Shown here: positions 52,101 through 60,775 of the stretch, one piece after another
Numbering within the stretch: the first letter of the stretch is position 1
How the letters are laid out: every line of letters starts with the position of its first letter
NCBI GenBank assembly: GCA_949840775.1
Contig: CATKXO010000009.1
Span: 25,388 to 89,387 of the forward strand
Direction of reading: 5' to 3'
DNA length: 64,000 nt
Source of the DNA: an uncultured bacterium
GTDB lineage: Bacteria; Bacillota; Clostridia; Oscillospirales; Oscillospiraceae
Notes under the pieces: generated by a model
Databases searched by the model: none
Seen by the model: the letters and a program-made list of their open reading frames with translations, nothing else
Told to the model about the DNA's origin: nothing
Translations under genes and position numbers: made by a program

Positions 52101-52763
52101 AAGGGCCGCGCCCTGGACCGGGAGGCGACAGAGGACGCTGTCCCCCCTGCCAGGAGAGGCCAGCCCATCACCCGGCCCAGCTTTATTGCGGAGGAACGGG
52201 GGCTGACACCCGCCCAGCGGGGTACCGCCCTCCACCTGGCCATGCAGTATCTGCCCCTGGACATGGAGGGCACCCCACAGGCGGTGGCCGCCGGGCTGGA
52301 CCGGCTCACCCAGGCGGGTTTTCTCACCAGGCTCCAGCGTGAGGCGGTGGCCCCGGAGCGGCTGGCCGCCTTTCTCAACAGTCCCCTGGGCCGGGCCATG
52401 GCTGCGGCAGGGGAGAAGTGCCGCCGGGAGTTCAAGTTCTCGGTGCTCACCTCCGCGCTGGACTATTTTCCGGAGGGAAAGGGGGAGGAGGTCCTCCTCC
52501 AGGGGGTCATTGACGCCTGGTTTGAGGGGGAGGACGGCTCAGTCACTGTGGTGGACTTCAAGAGCGACCGGGTGGCCCCCGGCGGGGAGCCGGCCCGGGC
52601 CGAGGAGTACCGCCCCCAGCTGGCCGCCTACAGCCAGGCCCTGTCCGCCATCCTGGGCAGGCCCGTCAACCGCCAGGTGCTGTGGTTTTTTGCCACAGAT
52701 ACGGTGGTGGAGCTGTCCGCCGGCCATCCGCAGCAGGGACAGGAAAAGATATCGGAAAACTGA
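49116..52763 (+). CDS. addA: ATP-dependent helicase/nuclease subunit A
   Basis: UvrD-like helicase with a C-terminal RecB nuclease domain; partner of AddB in double-strand-break repair. It has 1215 residues. Motif I is VSAAAGSGKTRV (Lys30), motif Ia TYTKAAAAEL, motif II VDEYQDTN, motif III QVGDVKQSIYRFR, motif V/VI VLSIHRAKGLE and LYVAMTRAREKL; the nuclease has VVDFKSDRV. The ATG at 49116 follows CGGAGG; a TTG 6 bp upstream overlaps the lipoprotein stop. It is the last gene of the DUF4317-addB-kinase-lipoprotein-addA cluster. Confidence 0.96.
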   Translation: MPFPLTEEQRNIVDDRGGELLVSAAAGSGKTRVLVERLLDRVTREGLDIDRFLVITYTKAAAAELLGRIAQELSDRLAQTPNDRHLRRQATLVYRTQISTIHSFCAALLRESGHLLDLDPDFRLCDEGESRVLMAQVLEELLDSRYEDLAEDSPFALLVDTLSAGRDDSRLAQIVVDIFGQVQSHPDPACWLEEQKELWRLEGIGDLTQTPWGAPLLEDAKRQARACRDRLLQALELVRSDELLGMNYAPSLSATVEALEGLLRENTWDGVCARLPIPFPRPGGKKKRTTELSPFEEERALWARERIKAVRDRSKKALEKMAVPFEGNTAAQLEELALSAPAVGALMDLVLDFQERFSREKVRRGVLDFSDLEHFAVKLLTGGEGKPSDLARYWGARYDEVLVDEYQDTNAVQNAIFNAISGGGLNLFQVGDVKQSIYRFRLADPSIFLDKYRRFSGGDQAVEGQPRKRTLSQNFRSRPQVLEGCNDLFRSIMSTEFGELDYTDDQALVPGKEFPENGGPFGSYALELDVLDLSFLGGQEGEKADKNLLEARFAARRIRALLDDPLMVEEGGALRPLRPSDVMILLRSPGPVLPHYLRALSEEGIPWTAGGGEDFFETTEVNVALALLQIVDNPRQDVPLIAALRSPVYGFSGDKLALLRAGGKGDFYSALVHAAENGDGDCRDFLDSLEELRFGAGDRTCRQLMWHIFEKTNLLGIFGAMPGGGERQDNLLALYALAGQLEDSGCLTLFQFLLRLERLKSTGSRLGAASGKGREGEGVSVLSIHRAKGLEKPLVLVCGLTRRLNRDNLMRPVLFHPELGVGPRGLDRERMVEYPTLARQAVARQLEREMMAEELRLLYVAMTRAREKLILTAAVVEGADALARLGESLPISPLSLEQQQSVGAWVLLHALTRPEGDALRALAGLPEQAAENLGPAWDICWVNGTSLGEEHKAEGHYTSWPTEEGAEVDLSARLSWTYPHMAAANIPSKLTATQIKGRALDREATEDAVPPARRGQPITRPSFIAEERGLTPAQRGTALHLAMQYLPLDMEGTPQAVAAGLDRLTQAGFLTRLQREAVAPERLAAFLNSPLGRAMAAAGEKCRREFKFSVLTSALDYFPEGKGEEVLLQGVIDAWFEGEDGSVTVVDFKSDRVAPGGEPARAEEYRPQLAAYSQALSAILGRPVNRQVLWFFATDTVVELSAGHPQQGQEKISEN

Positions 52764-52772
52764 AAAAAACAC

Positions 52773-52803
52773 TTGACTCTTCCGTAACGTCAAATGATAG
52801 TAT
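52773..52803 (+). promoter_or_regulatory. MerR-type promoter with 19-bp spacer
   Basis: TTGACT (52773-52778), 19-bp spacer, TAGTAT (52798-52803). The dyad TTGAC-N11-GTCAA (52773-52777, 52789-52793) lies inside it. A 19-bp spacer with a central dyad is what MerR-family activators require, so the following regulator probably controls itself. Confidence 0.65.
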
Positions 52804-52825
52804 CCCAAGCAGGAGGTGATTGGGC

Positions 52826-53584
52826 GTGGAATATTCCATTCAACAGCTGTCGCGCCTGTCCGGGGTGACCACTCGCACTCTGCGCTGGTACGATGAGATC
52901 GGTCTGCTGACGCCACGGGGCCGGAGAAAAAACGGCTACCGTTTCTACGGCCCGGCGGAGGTGGACCGGCTCCAGGATATCCTGTATTACCGGGCCCTCG
53001 GGGTGGAGCTGGCCCAGGTGAAGGCGTTCCTGGACGATCCCTCCTATGACCGTTTAGCCGTTCTCCGCGGCCACCTTGCCGCACTGGAAGAGGAGCGGAG
53101 ACGGCTCCAAAGGCTGATCGACTCTGTAAAAGAGACGGTCCGGACACAAGAAAGGGATGAAATCATGTCTGACGAGAAGAAATTTGAGGCCTTCAAGCGC
53201 CAGTTTGTGGAGGAGAAGGAGCGGCTCTACGGGGCTGAGATTCGGGAGAAGTACGGTGACGCCGAGGTGGACGCCTCCAACGCCCGGGTGATGGGAGTCA
53301 CGCTGGAGCAGTACACCGGGTGGGAGAATCTGGGACAGGAAATCCTGGATAAGCTGTCCGCCGCCGTAACCGCTGGGGCCGACCCGGCGGGGGAAGCCGG
53401 GCAGGAAATCACCGCCCTCCACCGCCGCTGGCTCAACGTTATGGGGGACAAGTATGATGCCCGGCGCCAGCGGGGGCTGGCAGAACTATATGTACAGGAT
53501 GAGCGCTTTACAGCCTACTACGACCGGGAGACGCCCGGCTGCGCCCGTTTCCTCCGGGACGCGGTGCTCCACTGGGCTGACTAG
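52826..53584 (+). CDS. MerR family regulator, TipA-like
   Basis: 252-residue regulator. Residues 1-70 are the winged helix (SIQQLSRLSGVTTRTLRWYDEIGLL in two parts, GYRFYGPAEVDRLQDI), then a dimerisation coil (about 75-110), and a C-terminal TipAS-type domain (about 115-250, HRRWLNVMGDKYDA, YVQDERFTAYYD), which in TipA binds thiopeptide-like drugs. The GTG at 52826 has a perfect AGGAGGTGAT upstream. No efflux or resistance gene is adjacent; the promoter shows self-control. Confidence 0.92.
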   Translation: MEYSIQQLSRLSGVTTRTLRWYDEIGLLTPRGRRKNGYRFYGPAEVDRLQDILYYRALGVELAQVKAFLDDPSYDRLAVLRGHLAALEEERRRLQRLIDSVKETVRTQERDEIMSDEKKFEAFKRQFVEEKERLYGAEIREKYGDAEVDASNARVMGVTLEQYTGWENLGQEILDKLSAAVTAGADPAGEAGQEITALHRRWLNVMGDKYDARRQRGLAELYVQDERFTAYYDRETPGCARFLRDAVLHWAD

Positions 53585-53593
53585 AGCCGCCTG

Positions 53594-53631
53594 AAAATCC
53601 GTCCCTGCGGCAGCCGCAGGGACGGATTTTT
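53594..53631 (+). terminator. Terminator after the TipA-like gene
   Basis: Long perfect stem AAATCCGTCCCTGCGG-CAG-CCGCAGGGACGGATTT followed by T. Confidence 0.92.
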
Positions 53632-53682
53632 GTGCCATGTTAAGAAAATGTATAAATGATGTGGAAGCACCGGGCAGTGCCC

Positions 53683-53710
53683 TTGACTTTGCGGGGAGAG
53701 TTGTTATAAT
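53683..53710 (+). promoter_or_regulatory. Promoter of the ATP synthase operon
   Basis: TTGACT (53683-53688), 16-bp spacer, TATAAT (53705-53710), about 60 bp before atpB. Confidence 0.8.
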
Positions 53711-53771
53711 GTGGGAGGAATCATGGCGTCCTGCGGATGCCGTTTCAGTTGTTGTAAAGAGAAGGGATGTT

Positions 53772-54596
53772 ATGAAGCAACATAAGAAAGCCTTGGCCCT
53801 GTGGATTGTGGTGACCCTGGCACTGCTGGCCGGGGCGCTGCTGGCCGGCTCCCCCGGCAGGGCGGAGACCGTTCAGGAGGCCATGCGGGATGCCGTCCTG
53901 CACGATGTCAATCAGGTCAGCCTGTTCGGCCTCAGGCCGGTGGCTCCAGGTATGATCTCCGCGTTTCTGGTGACAGCGGTCCTGTTGCTGGCAGCGGCTG
54001 CGGTCCGGATTTTCGCCATTCCCCGGTTCCGGTATATACCGGGCAAGCTCCAGCTGGTGCTGGAGGAGGCGGTGGGGCTCTTTGACCACATGGCCAAAAA
54101 CAGCAGTCCGCACCGGAACGGCTTTGTAGGGGCCTACATCTTCGCTGCCGGTGCCTACATCTTTGTGGGGACCCTCTTTGAGCTGCTGGGGCTTCAGGCC
54201 ATTACGGTCCACGGCCACCCGATCACCCTGCCTGCCCCGCTGTCCGATGTCAACGCCGCCATCGCCCTGGGCACCCTGTCCTACCTGGTGATCCTCTCCG
54301 GAGGCATCGCCGCCAACGGCGTGAGGGGAGTGGGCAAGACACTGAAGGAGTTCTCCCTGCCCATCTCTATGAGCTTCCGCCTTTTTGGCGCACTGCTCAG
54401 CGGCCTGCTGGTGACGGAGCTGGTATACTATTATGTTAACCTCAGCTTTGTTCTTCCGGTGGTTGTGGGCGTATTGTTTACGCTGCTCCACGCTCTGATC
54501 CAGACCTACGTGCTTACCATGCTGGTGTCAATGTACTATGGCGAGGTGTCTGAGCCTGGTGAACCAAAGAAAAAAGCGCGTGCCGCGCAGATATAA
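53772..54596 (+). CDS. atpB: F1Fo ATP synthase subunit a
   Basis: Membrane stator subunit with the ion half-channels. It has 274 residues and about six hydrophobic segments, the first (about 8-27) possibly signal-like. The essential arginine is in SMSFRLFGALLSG (helix 4 equivalent); the usual RLFGN asparagine is alanine here. The C-terminal helix has ALIQTYVLTMLVSMYYGE, with the conserved Gln. The ATG at 53772 follows GAAGGGATGTT. It opens the operon atpB-E-F-delta/A-G-D-C; no atpI gene precedes it. Confidence 0.93.
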   Translation: MKQHKKALALWIVVTLALLAGALLAGSPGRAETVQEAMRDAVLHDVNQVSLFGLRPVAPGMISAFLVTAVLLLAAAAVRIFAIPRFRYIPGKLQLVLEEAVGLFDHMAKNSSPHRNGFVGAYIFAAGAYIFVGTLFELLGLQAITVHGHPITLPAPLSDVNAAIALGTLSYLVILSGGIAANGVRGVGKTLKEFSLPISMSFRLFGALLSGLLVTELVYYYVNLSFVLPVVVGVLFTLLHALIQTYVLTMLVSMYYGEVSEPGEPKKKARAAQI

Positions 54597-54610
54597 AATA
54601 GGGGGTTTTT

Positions 54611-54970
54611 ATGATGAAACAGATGATGAAGAGAATTTTTGTTCTGGCCGGGGCCCTGGTACTGACCCTGTCCCTGGCCGCGCCCGCCTTTGCCGCCGAG
54701 GCGCCCGCCGCCGGAGGTGAGACCGCCGCCGTCCAGGAGGACAACACCATCGGCCTGAAAGCCATCGCTGCCGGTATCGCCGTGGGTGTTGCCGCCGCCG
54801 GCGGCGCAGTGGGCATGGGCCTGGCCACCGCCAAGTCCACCGAGAGCATCGCCCGCCAGCCCGAGGCCGAGGGCAAGGTCCGCACCACCCTGATGCTGGG
54901 CCTGGTCTTTATCGAGACGGCCATCATCTATGCGCTGCTGGTGGTCATTCTGATTATCTTTGTACTGTAA
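54611..54970 (+). CDS. atpE: ATP synthase subunit c with N-terminal signal-like extension
   Basis: 119 residues, about 35-40 more than a usual c subunit. Residues 1-29 look like a cleavable signal (basic start, hydrophobic core, AFA|AE), then a short Ala/Gly/Glu linker and the normal two-helix hairpin: helix 1, the loop ARQPEAEG, and helix 2 with the ion-binding carboxylate Glu102 in VFIETAIIYALL. The position of the Gln used by sodium-type rings is Met69 (GMGLATAK), which argues for proton coupling, although Thr103 and Tyr107 are like those of sodium types. Confidence 0.92.
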   Translation: MMKQMMKRIFVLAGALVLTLSLAAPAFAAEAPAAGGETAAVQEDNTIGLKAIAAGIAVGVAAAGGAVGMGLATAKSTESIARQPEAEGKVRTTLMLGLVFIETAIIYALLVVILIIFVL

Positions 54971-54984
54971 GGCAGGTGTGAGAC

Positions 54985-55467
54985 ATGCCGCTGAATATTG
55001 ATTGGCAGCAGATTCTGCTGCACTGGATGAATCTGGCCATCCTCACCGGCGGGCTGTACTTTCTGCTCTTTAAGCCGGTGAAGGCGTTCATGGCCAAGCG
55101 GGAGGAGCATTACCGCCAGCTGGACCGCCAGGCGGCGGACAAGCTGGCCCAGGCCCAGCAGCTGGAGGCCCAGGCCAAGGCCAAGCTGGAGGCGGCGGAC
55201 GACGAGATCCACGAAGAGCGGATGCGCGCCCAGCAGTCTATCCAGCAGTCCACCGAGGAGCAGCTGGCCCAGGCCCGGGAGCAGGCCCGGCAGATTGTGG
55301 AGCACGCCCAGGCCGAGGCGGAAAACAGCCGGGAGCGGGCGCTGCGTGACTCCCAGCGGGAGCTGCGGAAGCTGGCCGCTCAGGCCACCAAGAAGCTGGC
55401 TTTCCACGCCGACCCCTTCGACCAGTTCTTAGACCTGGCTGAGGAGGGAGAAGAGTATGAGGAGTGA
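54985..55467 (+). CDS. atpF: ATP synthase subunit b
   Basis: 160-residue peripheral-stalk subunit: one N-terminal membrane helix (about 10-30, LLHWMNLAILTGGLYFLLF), then a long charged coiled coil rich in Ala/Gln/Glu/Lys (about 35-140) and a short acidic C-terminus. A single b gene suggests a homodimeric stalk. It overlaps the delta-alpha fusion gene by 11 bp. Because that fusion lacks the delta N-terminal domain, the way this stalk contacts F1 must differ from the textbook case. Confidence 0.93.
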   Translation: MPLNIDWQQILLHWMNLAILTGGLYFLLFKPVKAFMAKREEHYRQLDRQAADKLAQAQQLEAQAKAKLEAADDEIHEERMRAQQSIQQSTEEQLAQAREQARQIVEHAQAEAENSRERALRDSQRELRKLAAQATKKLAFHADPFDQFLDLAEEGEEYEE

Positions 55468-57217
55468 CAGAAGCCGCCTGACGGCGGAGCTGCGCAGTGC
55501 CAAGGAGCCCTCTACCGAACAGAAGCAGCGTTTTTCCGAGTTTCTGGCCAAAAAGTACAGGCGCAAGGTGCCCATGCGCTGGGAGCAGGACGACTCTCTC
55601 AAGTCCGGCTTCCGTTTGCAGGTGGGGTCCGATGTCTACGACTGGAGCCTGGATGGCCGCATCCGCCAGTTCCAGGACTACCTGCGCCAGCTCCAGCCGG
55701 GGCAGCAGGACCTGATGCCCCTGATGCGCCAGGCCGTAGAGGACTGGTCACTGGCCGTGGTGCCTGAAGAGATTGGCACAGTGCTCACGGTAGACAGCGA
55801 GATTGCCACCATAGGCGGCCTGGAGCACGCCCAGTACGGCGAGATACTCCTCTTTACCGGCGGGATCAGGGGAATGGTCCAGGACCTGCGCCGGGGAGAG
55901 CTGAGCTGCGTGATTTTTGGCGACGCTGAGGAGATCAGCGCCGGCAGCATTGTCCGCCGCACCAAGAAGACTGCCGGTATGCCCGTGGGCGACGGCTTTT
56001 TGGGCCGGGTGGTGGACGCCCTGGGCGTTCCCATCGACGGCAAGGGCCGCATCCAACCGGAGGGCCGCCGGCCCATTGAGGCCCCCGCGCCCGGCATCCT
56101 GGACCGCCAGCCCGTCAACACCCCCATGGAGACCGGCCTGCTGGCCATCGACTCCATGTTTCCCATCGGCCGGGGCCAGCGTGAGCTGATTATCGGTGAC
56201 CGCCAGACGGGCAAGACCGCCATCGCCCTGGACACCATCCTGAACCAGAAGGGGAAGGATGTGGTGTGCATCTACGTGGCCATTGGGCAGAAGACCAGCT
56301 CCGTCGCCCAGATGGTGGAAAACCTGTCCCGGCGGGGGGCCATGGAGTATACCACCGTCATCAGCGCCCCGGCGGGGGCGTCGGCCGCCATGCAGTATAT
56401 CGCCCCCTACGCCGGCTGCGCCCTGGGGGAGCACTTTATGTATCACGGCCGGGACGTGCTGATTATTTACGACGACCTGTCCAAGCACGCCGTGGCCTAC
56501 CGGGCCCTGTCCCTGCTGATGGGCCGGTCCCCCGGCCGTGAGGCCTACCCCGGCGACGTGTTCTACCTCCACTCCCGGCTGCTGGAGCGGGCCGCCCACC
56601 TCAGCGACGAGCTGGGCGGGGGCAGCATGACCGCCCTGCCCATCGCCGAGACCCAGGCGGGGGACGTGTCCGCCTATATCCCCACCAACATCATCTCCAT
56701 CACCGACGGGCAGATCTTCCTGGAGAGCGATCTGTTTTTCTCCGGCCAGCGGCCCGCCGTCAACGTGGGTCTGTCCGTCTCCCGCGTGGGTGGCGACGCC
56801 CAGACCAGGGCCATGAAGAAAGCGGCGGGCACCCTCCGCCTGGAGCTGGCCCAGTACCGGGAGATGGAGGTCTTTACCCAGTTCTCCAGCGATCTGGATG
56901 AGGCCACCAAGCGCCAGCTGGTCTACGGCCAGGGGCTGATGCGGCTGCTGCGCCAGCCCCAATATGCCCCGCTGGCCCAGCACCAGCAGGTGATTCTGCT
57001 GGTGTCCGCCCTGAACCACGTGTTGCAGGATGTCCCGCTGGACGACATCGACCGCTTTGAGGAGGGCCTGCTGGCCTTTATGGAGGAGCAGGTCCAGGAC
57101 CTGTGCCGGCGGATCGACATGACCGGCCAGCTGGAGCAGGAGGACCGGGAGGAGATCGTGGAGCTGGCCAGAGAGTTCCTGGAGGACTGGAAGTCCGGCG
57201 GAAAGCGCGGTGGCTGA
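55457..57217 (+). CDS. atpA: ATP synthase delta C-terminal domain fused to subunit alpha
   Basis: 586 residues, about 80 more than a normal alpha subunit. Residues about 20-75 match the C-terminal domain of delta/OSCP: RFSEFLAKKYRRKVPMRWE, SLKSGFRLQVGSDVYDWSL and DGRIRQFQDYL (compare E. coli delta KVKLNCKIDKS... and DGSVRGRLERL). From about residue 95 it is a standard alpha subunit: EIGTVLTVDSEIATIGGL, P-loop GDRQTGKT (247-254, offset 78 from E. coli), DDLSKHAVAYR and SVSRVGGDAQT with the arginine finger. No separate atpH exists in the operon and the delta N-terminal six-helix domain is absent. GAGGAGGGAGAAGAGT precedes the ATG. Confidence 0.93.
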   Translation: MRSDRSRLTAELRSAKEPSTEQKQRFSEFLAKKYRRKVPMRWEQDDSLKSGFRLQVGSDVYDWSLDGRIRQFQDYLRQLQPGQQDLMPLMRQAVEDWSLAVVPEEIGTVLTVDSEIATIGGLEHAQYGEILLFTGGIRGMVQDLRRGELSCVIFGDAEEISAGSIVRRTKKTAGMPVGDGFLGRVVDALGVPIDGKGRIQPEGRRPIEAPAPGILDRQPVNTPMETGLLAIDSMFPIGRGQRELIIGDRQTGKTAIALDTILNQKGKDVVCIYVAIGQKTSSVAQMVENLSRRGAMEYTTVISAPAGASAAMQYIAPYAGCALGEHFMYHGRDVLIIYDDLSKHAVAYRALSLLMGRSPGREAYPGDVFYLHSRLLERAAHLSDELGGGSMTALPIAETQAGDVSAYIPTNIISITDGQIFLESDLFFSGQRPAVNVGLSVSRVGGDAQTRAMKKAAGTLRLELAQYREMEVFTQFSSDLDEATKRQLVYGQGLMRLLRQPQYAPLAQHQQVILLVSALNHVLQDVPLDDIDRFEEGLLAFMEEQVQDLCRRIDMTGQLEQEDREEIVELAREFLEDWKSGGKRGG

Positions 57218-57218
57218 G

Positions 57219-59519
<2,301 letters not shown>

Positions 59520-59520
<1 letters not shown>

Positions 59521-59933
59521 TGGAGACCTTTCAGGTACACATTCTGGCTGCGGACCACACCTTTTACGAGGGTCCCTGCGTCAGCCTGACCATCCCCACC
59601 AGCGACGGGGAGCAGGGCATTCTGGCCCACCACAGCAGCATGATCGCCGCCGTCCGACCGGGCACTCTGCGCTACCAGGTGCCGGGGGAAGAGCCCCGGC
59701 TGGCCGCGGTCTCGCCGGGCATGGTGAAGGTGGAGGACAACGACGTGCTGGTGCTGGTGGACTCCGCCGAGCGGCCGGAGGAGATTGACGTGGTCCGGGC
59801 CCAACGGGAGATTGAGGAGGCCCGGGAGGCGCTGCTGCAAAAGCGGAGCCGCCAGGAGCACCAGATCGCCCAGGCCACCATGGCCCGGGCGCTGAACCGC
59901 CTGCGGGTGAAGAATATGGGCATCGGACGGTAA
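59520..59933 (+). CDS. atpC: ATP synthase subunit epsilon
   Basis: 137-residue F1 subunit: N-terminal beta-sandwich (FQVHILAADHTFYEG, DGEQGILAHHSSMIAAVRPG) and a C-terminal two-helix hairpin (about 90-135, EEARE...QATMARALNRLRVKN) that inhibits ATP hydrolysis in relatives. Starts within the atpD stop codon and ends the ATP synthase operon; the next gene is 15 bp downstream, without a terminator. Confidence 0.94.
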
Positions 59934-59947
59934 CAGAAGGGGGACCT

Positions 59948-60775
59948 ATGGACCAGCAGGGCAGAAAAATTCTCTATCACTATACCGACTTTCAGGCTGT
60001 AGACGGCATTTTGAGCCAGGCACAGCTCCGGGTCAATAATGTGCTGCGCATGAACGACTCGGCAGAGATGCGCCACTTTATGAACGGGCTGTGTACTGCG
60101 GTGGCCCAGCGGCTGGAGGAGGACGGAGACAGGGAGCGGGCCGGACAGGTCCGGACCCTGTTCCGGGAGGAGATGAAAAAAGAGTACTCTGCCTTTGCCG
60201 CCTGCTTCTCCTTCCACCGGGACGACGCCGCCCAGTGGGAGCGGTACGGCAACCGGGGGCGGGGGGTGTGCATCGCTTTCCGCCGGGAGTATTTGGAAAA
60301 GATGGCGGTGGGCGCCCTGTCTCTCCAGCTGGTCTTCTATCAAAACGATATGGCCGGCCACCCCATGGTGGAGGTATTTTACAAGCTGGCTAAGGGAGGG
60401 GCGGACTTGGCCGGGGAGGAGGTCCGGCGGGCCATGTACGACGCCTGGGCCTGTTCGGTGTCCTTTAAGCACCCCTCTTTCCGCTCAGAGTATGAGATGC
60501 GGCTGGTGGTTTCCCCCTTTGACAAGGAGGAGTTGGACATCCAGCCCTGCTACCACGTGTCCAAGGAGCGGATCAAGAAGTACTACCCCCTGGATTTGCG
60601 GGCCATGTGTGAGAAAATCGGGATCGGGCTGGAGGATTTGGTCACTGAGCTTATCATCGGGCCGGACTCCACCCAGTCTGCGGCCATTTTTCAGGACTAT
60701 CTCCGGGACCACGGCCTGCACCGGCTGGCGGAGCGGGTATCCCTGTCGGACTGCCCCCTGCGGGTGTCGATTTGA
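59948..60775 (+). CDS. DUF2971 family protein
   Basis: 275-residue protein of the DUF2971 family, function unknown. Typical blocks are LYHYTDFQAVDGIL, NNVLRMNDSAEMRHF, FAACFSFHRDDAAQWERYGN with GRGVCIAF, and the later HPSFRSEYEMRLVV; conserved His, Arg and Glu in these blocks resemble ADP-ribosyltransferase-like folds, which is a suggestion only. Such genes are often seen in accessory or defence-associated regions. Here the start lies 15 bp after atpC with AGAAGGGGGACCT, so it may be read through from the ATP synthase operon. Confidence 0.85.
   Translation: MDQQGRKILYHYTDFQAVDGILSQAQLRVNNVLRMNDSAEMRHFMNGLCTAVAQRLEEDGDRERAGQVRTLFREEMKKEYSAFAACFSFHRDDAAQWERYGNRGRGVCIAFRREYLEKMAVGALSLQLVFYQNDMAGHPMVEVFYKLAKGGADLAGEEVRRAMYDAWACSVSFKHPSFRSEYEMRLVVSPFDKEELDIQPCYHVSKERIKKYYPLDLRAMCEKIGIGLEDLVTELIIGPDSTQSAAIFQDYLRDHGLHRLAERVSLSDCPLRVSI

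Follow-up and report, generated by a model that had tools for sequence, protein, structure and literature searches.

Known ATP synthases and a natural fusion

The textbook FoF1 ATP synthase has one peripheral stalk and one ion channel per rotor. In the enzyme of Bacillus PS3, the N-terminal domain (NTD) of the delta subunit is described as lying on the three-fold axis of the crown, where it limits the number of stalks to one, and all ATP synthases known so far are stated to have one a-subunit (PMC12229609). The same source describes an engineered PS3 FoF1, with the delta NTD removed and delta residues 105-178 placed on the alpha N-terminus, which assembles as many as three each of b2 stalks and a-subunits and has an H+/ATP ratio of 5.8. 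Natural delta-alpha fusions without the NTD are named there for Acidaminococcus fermentans and for the UniProt entries G4Q3K6 and A0A1I2C5T3. Here, we describe such a gene in a 64,000-nucleotide stretch of DNA from an uncultured gut bacterium of the Oscillospiraceae (the window, the whole stretch analysed), in which the delta C-terminal domain (CTD) forms the N-terminus of the alpha subunit. The original prediction, made from the sequence alone, had considered a delta-alpha fusion unfamiliar; in this it has to be corrected, as the kind is already published. We propose, with a probability of about 0.65, that the window enzyme carries more than one b2 stalk.

The alpha subunit carries a delta C-terminal domain

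The fused gene comprises the following features:

55457..57217 (+): delta CTD-alpha fusion gene, 586 amino acids (aa), from the open reading frame (ORF) call and matches to PF00213 and TIGR00962
55460..55684 (+): delta/OSCP CTD, alpha residues 2-76, PF00213 positions 97-172, E 6.2e-12
55706..57214 (+): alpha proper, residues 84-586, with TIGR00962 at residues 84-575 and with PF02874, PF00006 and PF00306
55442..55447 (+): AGGAGG, a Shine-Dalgarno-like motif 9 nt upstream of the ATG of the fused gene

The first ~75 residues of alpha had been read as the delta/OSCP CTD, and the OSCP profile search then called for bears this out. In the whole protein, PF00213 aligned from position 97 to 171 of its 172 with residues 2-75 (E 1.5e-10, 41.9 bits against a cut-off of 22.3), while residues 1-100 searched alone matched positions 97-172 of 172 with 46.4 bits. 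The NCBIfam listing for residues 1-100 contained 15 families, of which 13 were delta, b-delta or alternate-b models (best E 1.5e-10), none of them over its curated cut-off, these cut-offs being made for whole proteins. The N-terminal extension is a delta/OSCP CTD joined to alpha. A member of the delta/OSCP family would have both domains; here, only positions 97-172 of PF00213 are represented. The remainder of the protein is an ordinary alpha (TIGR00962 E 1.4e-215, 716.8 bits against a cut-off of 484.45). Its P-loop lysine is residue 253, which gives the predicted shift of 78 positions against K175 of E. coli alpha.

Residues G51, F52, L54, G57, Y61, D62, W63 and Q71 of the CTD are invariant across 44 aligned fusions and 45 aligned N-terminal parts, whose identity to the window is 57-91% for the other 43 fusions and 38-86% for the N-terminal parts. 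Judged from these alignments, the fused CTD is under constraint. Of the canonical delta GG...D motif, the CTD-alpha class keeps the second G and the D, the first G being mostly lost. The delta/OSCP NTD has a helical fold. The CTD part was modelled by AlphaFold2 in the order strand-helix-three strands-helix (strands E, helices H: E10-14, H20-34, E40-44, E53-56, E59-62, H65-78), with a predicted local distance difference test score (pLDDT) near 80 over residues 11-60.

No delta N-terminal domain found in operon or genome

The gene order of the operon is a-c-b-(CTD)alpha-gamma-beta-epsilon. There is no atpH, as predicted; with the end of atpF at 55467 and the start of alpha at 55457, an 11-nt overlap leaves no space for atpH between them. 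In the host genome (2.61 Mb in 64 contigs, 97.2% complete), the fused alpha was the single PF00213 match. A profile built from 12 delta NTDs, seven of them taken from full delta-alpha fusions, retrieved nothing at E<=10 from this 97.2% complete genome. On eight control genomes, the profile gave matches in seven. Six were convincing, at E values between 6.8e-32 and 3.0e-7, and among these G128, of the window's own genus, had supplied a sequence to the profile. The seventh match (E 0.23, in an 886-aa frame) was chance-like, and the eighth genome, itself a CTD-alpha carrier, was blank. The claim that the delta NTD is missing is supported for operon and genome, by PF00213 and by the NTD profile with positive controls. 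Given the single PF00213 match and the empty NTD search, neither observation that could have overturned the prediction was made: no complete atpH was found elsewhere in the genome, and the OSCP match of the extension is significant.

The operon belongs to an F-type ATP synthase: alpha lies over the TIGR00962 cut-off, delta is represented by the fused CTD only, and the other subunits are encoded alongside:

53772..54596 (+): atpB, a subunit, PF00119 E 8e-18, with a possible ORF start at 53637
54611..54970 (+): atpE, c subunit, extended N-terminally by a signal-peptide-like segment, PF00137 (residues 52-115) E 5.8e-15
54985..55467 (+): atpF, b subunit, a separate gene of 160 aa, PF00430 E 6.7e-15
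57210..58109 (+): atpG, gamma, PF00231 E 1.5e-85
58117..59520 (+): atpD, beta, PF00006 E 9e-72
59520..59933 (+): atpC, epsilon, PF02823 E 1.5e-20 and PF00401 E 1.3e-9

An Rfam search of positions 52700-60000 gave no match. Two NTD-only OSCP matches below the cut-off (G052:C4 and G092:C91) are probably not delta, no ATP synthase gene adjoining them in the stretches concerned (L224, L225). Small proteins in frames of 113-164 aa with a delta NTD match only were also seen in L134, L135 and L142, with no F-type alpha in the fetched stretches.

Architectures among relatives

In a sample of 150 genomes of the family, 85 had an OSCP match and 82 an alpha above the TIGR00962 cut-off; F-type enzymes are therefore patchy in the family. 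Among the family OSCP matches listed, 22 places besides the window matched over the CTD only, in 583-619 aa frames, and G081 among them proved to be a b-CTD-alpha gene cut by the contig. A further nine were longer OSCP matches in 664-706 aa frames, and seven were CTD matches in 741-815 aa frames. Eighty mostly non-canonical places were fetched from the family and its order, with genes assigned by profile, and 79 of them hold alpha. Thirty-six of the 79 are CTD-alpha, 16 are b-CTD-alpha and 10 are full delta-alpha; another 10 pair a stand-alone CTD with a plain alpha, two of these being the two operons in G098. Three have a separate full delta, one of these loci (L032) being truncated where the contig ends, two have a b-CTD gene beside a plain alpha, one carries tandem CTDs on alpha, and one combines CTD-alpha with an additional b-CTD gene. 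These counts are not frequencies, the loci having been picked mostly for non-canonical matches. L022, placed with CTD-alpha, has retained a long N-terminus in which the NTD is no longer recognisable. Pfam agreed with the assigned architecture for the variants submitted. The stand-alone CTD genes encode 73-80 aa and lie beside an ordinary alpha in related operons.

In the b-CTD-alpha triple fusions, b is part of the same chain. All 16 show a peak of hydrophobicity at 157-175 residues ahead of the CTD, and the operon of each contains another, separate b gene; the peak scores 1.96-2.66 in 15 of them and a borderline 1.60 in L029, where a stricter scan left it unmarked. Pfam confirmed b, OSCP and alpha in both proteins tested. 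As a helix, the stretch between the hydrophobic peak and the CTD would span some 200 Å, and the three chains of each F1 would form three anchored stalk strands unless they were cut.

At least seven family genomes pair a separate full-length delta with a non-canonical gene (G008, G043, G053, G081, G099, G100 and G148). The window's own genus includes CTD-alpha (the window), full delta-alpha (G128, L014) and a genome without an F-type alpha above the cut-off (G039). In a wider sample of the phylum, 334 of 398 genomes had OSCP; the matches listed there, best first, were almost full-length and lay in frames of ~178-239 aa, the pattern of a separate delta. Twenty-three phylum genomes picked for weak or multiple matches were searched again and 20 stretches fetched, 13 of which contained alpha: nine were CTD-alpha, two were N-ATPase-like with a long b ending in a CTD, and two had a plain alpha next to a separate gene with CTDs.

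When named genomes were scanned with eight close fusions as query, 98 relatives were retrieved and 80 of them kept. In all 80, CTD and alpha share one open frame as CTD-alpha, a result that speaks for breadth and not for frequency, since the query biased the scan to the window's subtype. Carriers include Flintibacter muris DSM 110149, Faecalibacterium gallinarum JCM 17207, Faecalibacterium sp. An122, Colidextribacter, Oscillibacter sp. ER4 and Anaeromassilibacillus senegalensis. Sequencing errors can create fusions, and the window gene might on that account be an assembly or annotation artefact in which the stop codon between atpH and atpA was lost. The related loci already refute this explanation, to which we give practically no weight: the frame is uninterrupted in all the kept loci of other named genomes, many of them metagenome-assembled, the F. 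muris and F. gallinarum strains are among them, and an indel would leave the disappearance of the NTD unexplained.

Other arrangements of delta domains were also encountered. L124-L126 and L231 encode proteins of 132-171 aa that match the delta CTD well, and no ATP synthase gene was found in the fetched stretches; three of them lie less than 5 kb apart in one genome. In L139 (5165-6061, +), a 299-aa protein ahead of alpha has two tandem delta CTDs behind an NTD part, the latter detected by the OSCP search only. L226 encodes a 261-aa delta carrying an extra CTD. The two ATP synthase operons of G098 have the same layout, and in the second (L045) alpha is broken into frames of 76 and 445 aa.

Origin of the fusion

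A quick tree was built from 106 alpha cores (120 sequences spanning at least 380 residues, less 14 identical or contained), with a midpoint root for drawing only. The type labels of L001, L022 and L028 were set by hand, and L040, L051 and L105-L107 were placed in lineage II after the tree had been seen. NTD-less alphas fell in three places. Forcing all 66 of them into one clade was rejected by the approximately unbiased test (p-AU 0.00093), and parsimony on this tree needed six changes of NTD state. Related bacteria appear to have reached the NTD-less design several times.

Lineage I, that of the window, is a CTD-alpha group surrounded by full delta-alpha fusions and a few separate-delta operons, and several of its inner forks have values of 80-92 in the Shimodaira–Hasegawa-like approximate likelihood ratio test (SH-aLRT). 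Because these two types lie around the CTD-alpha group, the arrangement suggests that the fusion preceded the loss of the NTD. Lineage II consists mainly of stand-alone CTDs (9 of 16), among which CTD-alpha and b-CTD are nested; this suggests the reverse order, in which the NTD was lost before the CTD was welded on. Lineage III comprises the tree's 16 b-CTD-alpha fusions together with L028, an operon with both b-CTD and CTD-alpha. We infer the direction of change in each case, as the tree is a quick one and midpoint-rooted.

Number of peripheral stalks

According to the reading we favour, the window encodes a complete F-type ATP synthase/ATPase that has lost the delta NTD and in which the delta CTD has become the covalent N-terminus of alpha. 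The CTD is the part of delta that clasps the tip of the b dimer, and each alpha would offer a b2 docking site. Three CTD copies per F1, as originally predicted, are expected, since each alpha carries the fused CTD; with three alphas per F1, the crown would carry three equivalent b2 docking sites. As no NTD would occupy the three-fold axis, nothing would limit the enzyme to one stalk, and several b2 stalks would be the most likely outcome. Each extra b2 stalk could bring its own a-subunit, and by the half-channel argument more a-subunits would raise the H+ (or Na+) per ATP and allow work at low motive force. We infer the 3:3 stoichiometry, the several stalks and a-subunits and the energetic role. 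For the window, where b is separate, several stalks are likely, not forced. The strongest pointer to them comes from the b-CTD-alpha relatives, in which each alpha would, by its gene structure, be bound covalently to a stalk strand anchored in the membrane by an N-terminal hydrophobic helix, making the three-stalk claim hard to escape.

Several observations weigh against this reading. With b a separate gene in the window, the supply of a or b could keep the enzyme at a single stalk. The engineered enzyme averaged about two stalks, and triple-stalk particles were rare, as described in PMC12229609. The CTD model reached a pLDDT of only 65 overall. Eight of 69 fusion ORFs have a 5-base Shine-Dalgarno match before an in-frame start near the junction of CTD and alpha, among them L039 and L048, the nearest relatives of the window in the tree, with a GTG at the same place.

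The separate b gene of the window and the rarity of triple-stalk particles, like the single a-subunit of described ATP synthases, would fit an enzyme with three redundant sites and one stalk, as in the original prediction, in which one b2 and one a assemble because a and b are limiting, or because a second a is disfavoured sterically or energetically with the native c-ring. We consider such an enzyme rather unlikely: the three sites would be equivalent without the NTD and were filled to about two on average in the engineered enzyme, b-CTD-alpha relatives could not select one of three strands unless cleaved, and NTD-less alphas occur in three lineages.

The candidate starts bear on another explanation, that fewer than three alphas carry the CTD because it is removed after translation, is bypassed in some of the alpha by an internal start, or is vestigial. 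A free CTD is evidently tolerated, since stand-alone CTD genes occur beside ordinary alpha in related operons, and both the window and the two relatives nearest to it have, after the CTD, an in-frame GTG with a weak Shine-Dalgarno match. The scan covered in-frame starts near the junction with a Shine-Dalgarno match of 5 bases or longer in the 69 fusion ORFs. Four of the 69 are loci that repeat a gene already included, and one of these four belongs to the eight with a match. In 61 of the 69, no in-frame start near the junction had a match of at least 5 bases, and nine ORFs had no start codon there at all. The places of the eight candidates differ, except in the pairs L039/L048 and L105/L106. 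The window itself has two ATG and two GTG candidates, with a match of at most 4 bases; the GTG shared in position with L039/L048 has a 4-base match, and a product from it, which would lose the N-terminal helix of alpha too, is unlikely. The scan could see strong starts, as it detected AAGGAGG 8 nt upstream of the internal ATG for beta in two gamma-beta ORFs (L036 and L041). As no start is conserved across the group, internal initiation was rejected as a general route to a mixed pool of fused and plain alpha. The strong conservation of the CTD in both alignments and the single open frame in every kept named locus also argue against loss of the CTD, and the stand-alone lineage has cases of fusion to alpha or b as well. 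We judge this explanation highly improbable.

The physiological role proposed for the window's F-type enzyme is tentative, as the host genome also has genes resembling a V/A-type ATPase (L228) and two RnfC matches above the curated cut-off; Rnf is a plausible source of a small gradient in the host. If two or three stalks are carried, the ion/ATP ratio would gain a second evolvable gear, the number of a-subunits times the c-ring size, and fermenters in the gut that depend on a weak ion gradient could synthesise ATP at gradients under the usual threshold. Natural genes of this kind, some from cultured strains, offer test material for an effect so far shown in an engineered enzyme only. A broader proposal, for which we see even odds, is that F-type ATPases with several stalks occur widely among Oscillospiraceae-like gut bacteria and arose on at least three occasions through loss of the delta NTD, the number of stalks and a-subunits being an evolving gear like c-ring size. 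The three routes proposed under it are delta-alpha fusion followed by NTD loss (the window's line), a free CTD later welded to alpha or b, and a b-CTD-alpha triple fusion that would make three anchored stalks obligatory.

Other features of the ATP synthase operons

Gamma and beta share one uninterrupted frame of 767-795 aa in L036 (1719-4022, -), L041 (1284-3584, -), L112 (1191-3575, -) and L116, and a single gamma-beta frame is also present in L038, on a contig with Ns. Pfam recognised a whole gamma plus beta in L041 and L112. Such a chain would tether rotor to stator; rotation is reported to persist with the gamma C-terminus cross-linked to the bearing (PMC3536650).

The N-terminal extension of the window's c subunit (54611-54970) is about 40 residues long and signal-peptide-like. 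The median number of residues before the c-subunit ARQPE motif was 91 in 95 CTD-alpha loci versus 37-46.5 in other classes, counted on stop-to-stop frames for classes with at least two loci, 80 of the ~95 CTD-alpha loci coming from the biased named-genome scan. A long c-subunit N-terminus tends to be common to CTD-alpha operons. In L034 (G037), a 614-aa a-subunit frame before atpE has a long N-terminal part with repeated membrane segments and a second weak a match.

Comparison with known enzymes

The engineered deltaDeltaN-alpha FoF1 of Bacillus PS3 (Ueno et al. 2025) and the window agree in having the delta CTD on the alpha N-terminus, no NTD (in the window's case, in a genome 97% complete) and a separate b. 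PDB chain 9jc1_I (580 aa), equated with this construct by its molecule name, aligned with the window alpha (586 aa) over residues 14-564. Among 60 of the 68 PDB chains found for the window protein, 9jc1_I alone aligns from inside the CTD (residue 14), the alignments of the other 59 starting at residue 76 or beyond. The construct is man-made and is described as having the epsilon C-terminal domain removed (PMC12229609), whereas the window epsilon is whole (PF00401). The Acidaminococcus fermentans fusion and the two UniProt entries have the same NTD-less delta-alpha layout according to PMC12229609, in other organisms and compared by description only. No other paper on a delta-alpha fusion appeared among the titles and abstracts that searches of an open-licence library brought up.

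In the actinobacterial b-delta fusion (PDB 7jg5 chain d, 445 aa), delta is likewise merged with a neighbouring stator subunit, and its CTD matches that of the window (E 0.00024). However, delta is on b there, unlike the window, where the CTD is on alpha and b is a separate 160-aa gene; the actinobacterial chain keeps its NTD. Fusions of b and delta are described for Gordonia and some Mycobacterium (PMC5709465).

N-ATPases, an alternate F1F0 type, are said to be without delta (PMC5706428). They differ from the window in a gene order with beta-epsilon first (beta-epsilon-...-a-c-b-alpha-gamma), a CTD on b and a plain alpha; the window's order is a-c-b-alpha-gamma-beta-epsilon, and its alpha scored 612.8 bits with the alternate alpha model TIGR03324 against a cut-off of 750.5. 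In the N-ATPase-like L136 (5471-6313, -) and L137, the long b ends in an OSCP CTD match, in L136 exactly at the Pfam cut-off of 22.3 bits, and no NTD was seen in these operons. Because of these matches, N-ATPases may be without the delta NTD only, rather than all of delta.

Eukaryotic V-ATPases resemble the proposed window enzyme in their several peripheral stalks, which are made of other stalk proteins and serve one a-subunit. For A- and V-type enzymes, two or three peripheral stalks are reported (PMC5376962). Among F-type enzymes, the window is a further case of a known but barely described kind, and the spread of this kind, its intermediates and the b-CTD-alpha form go beyond the published accounts found.

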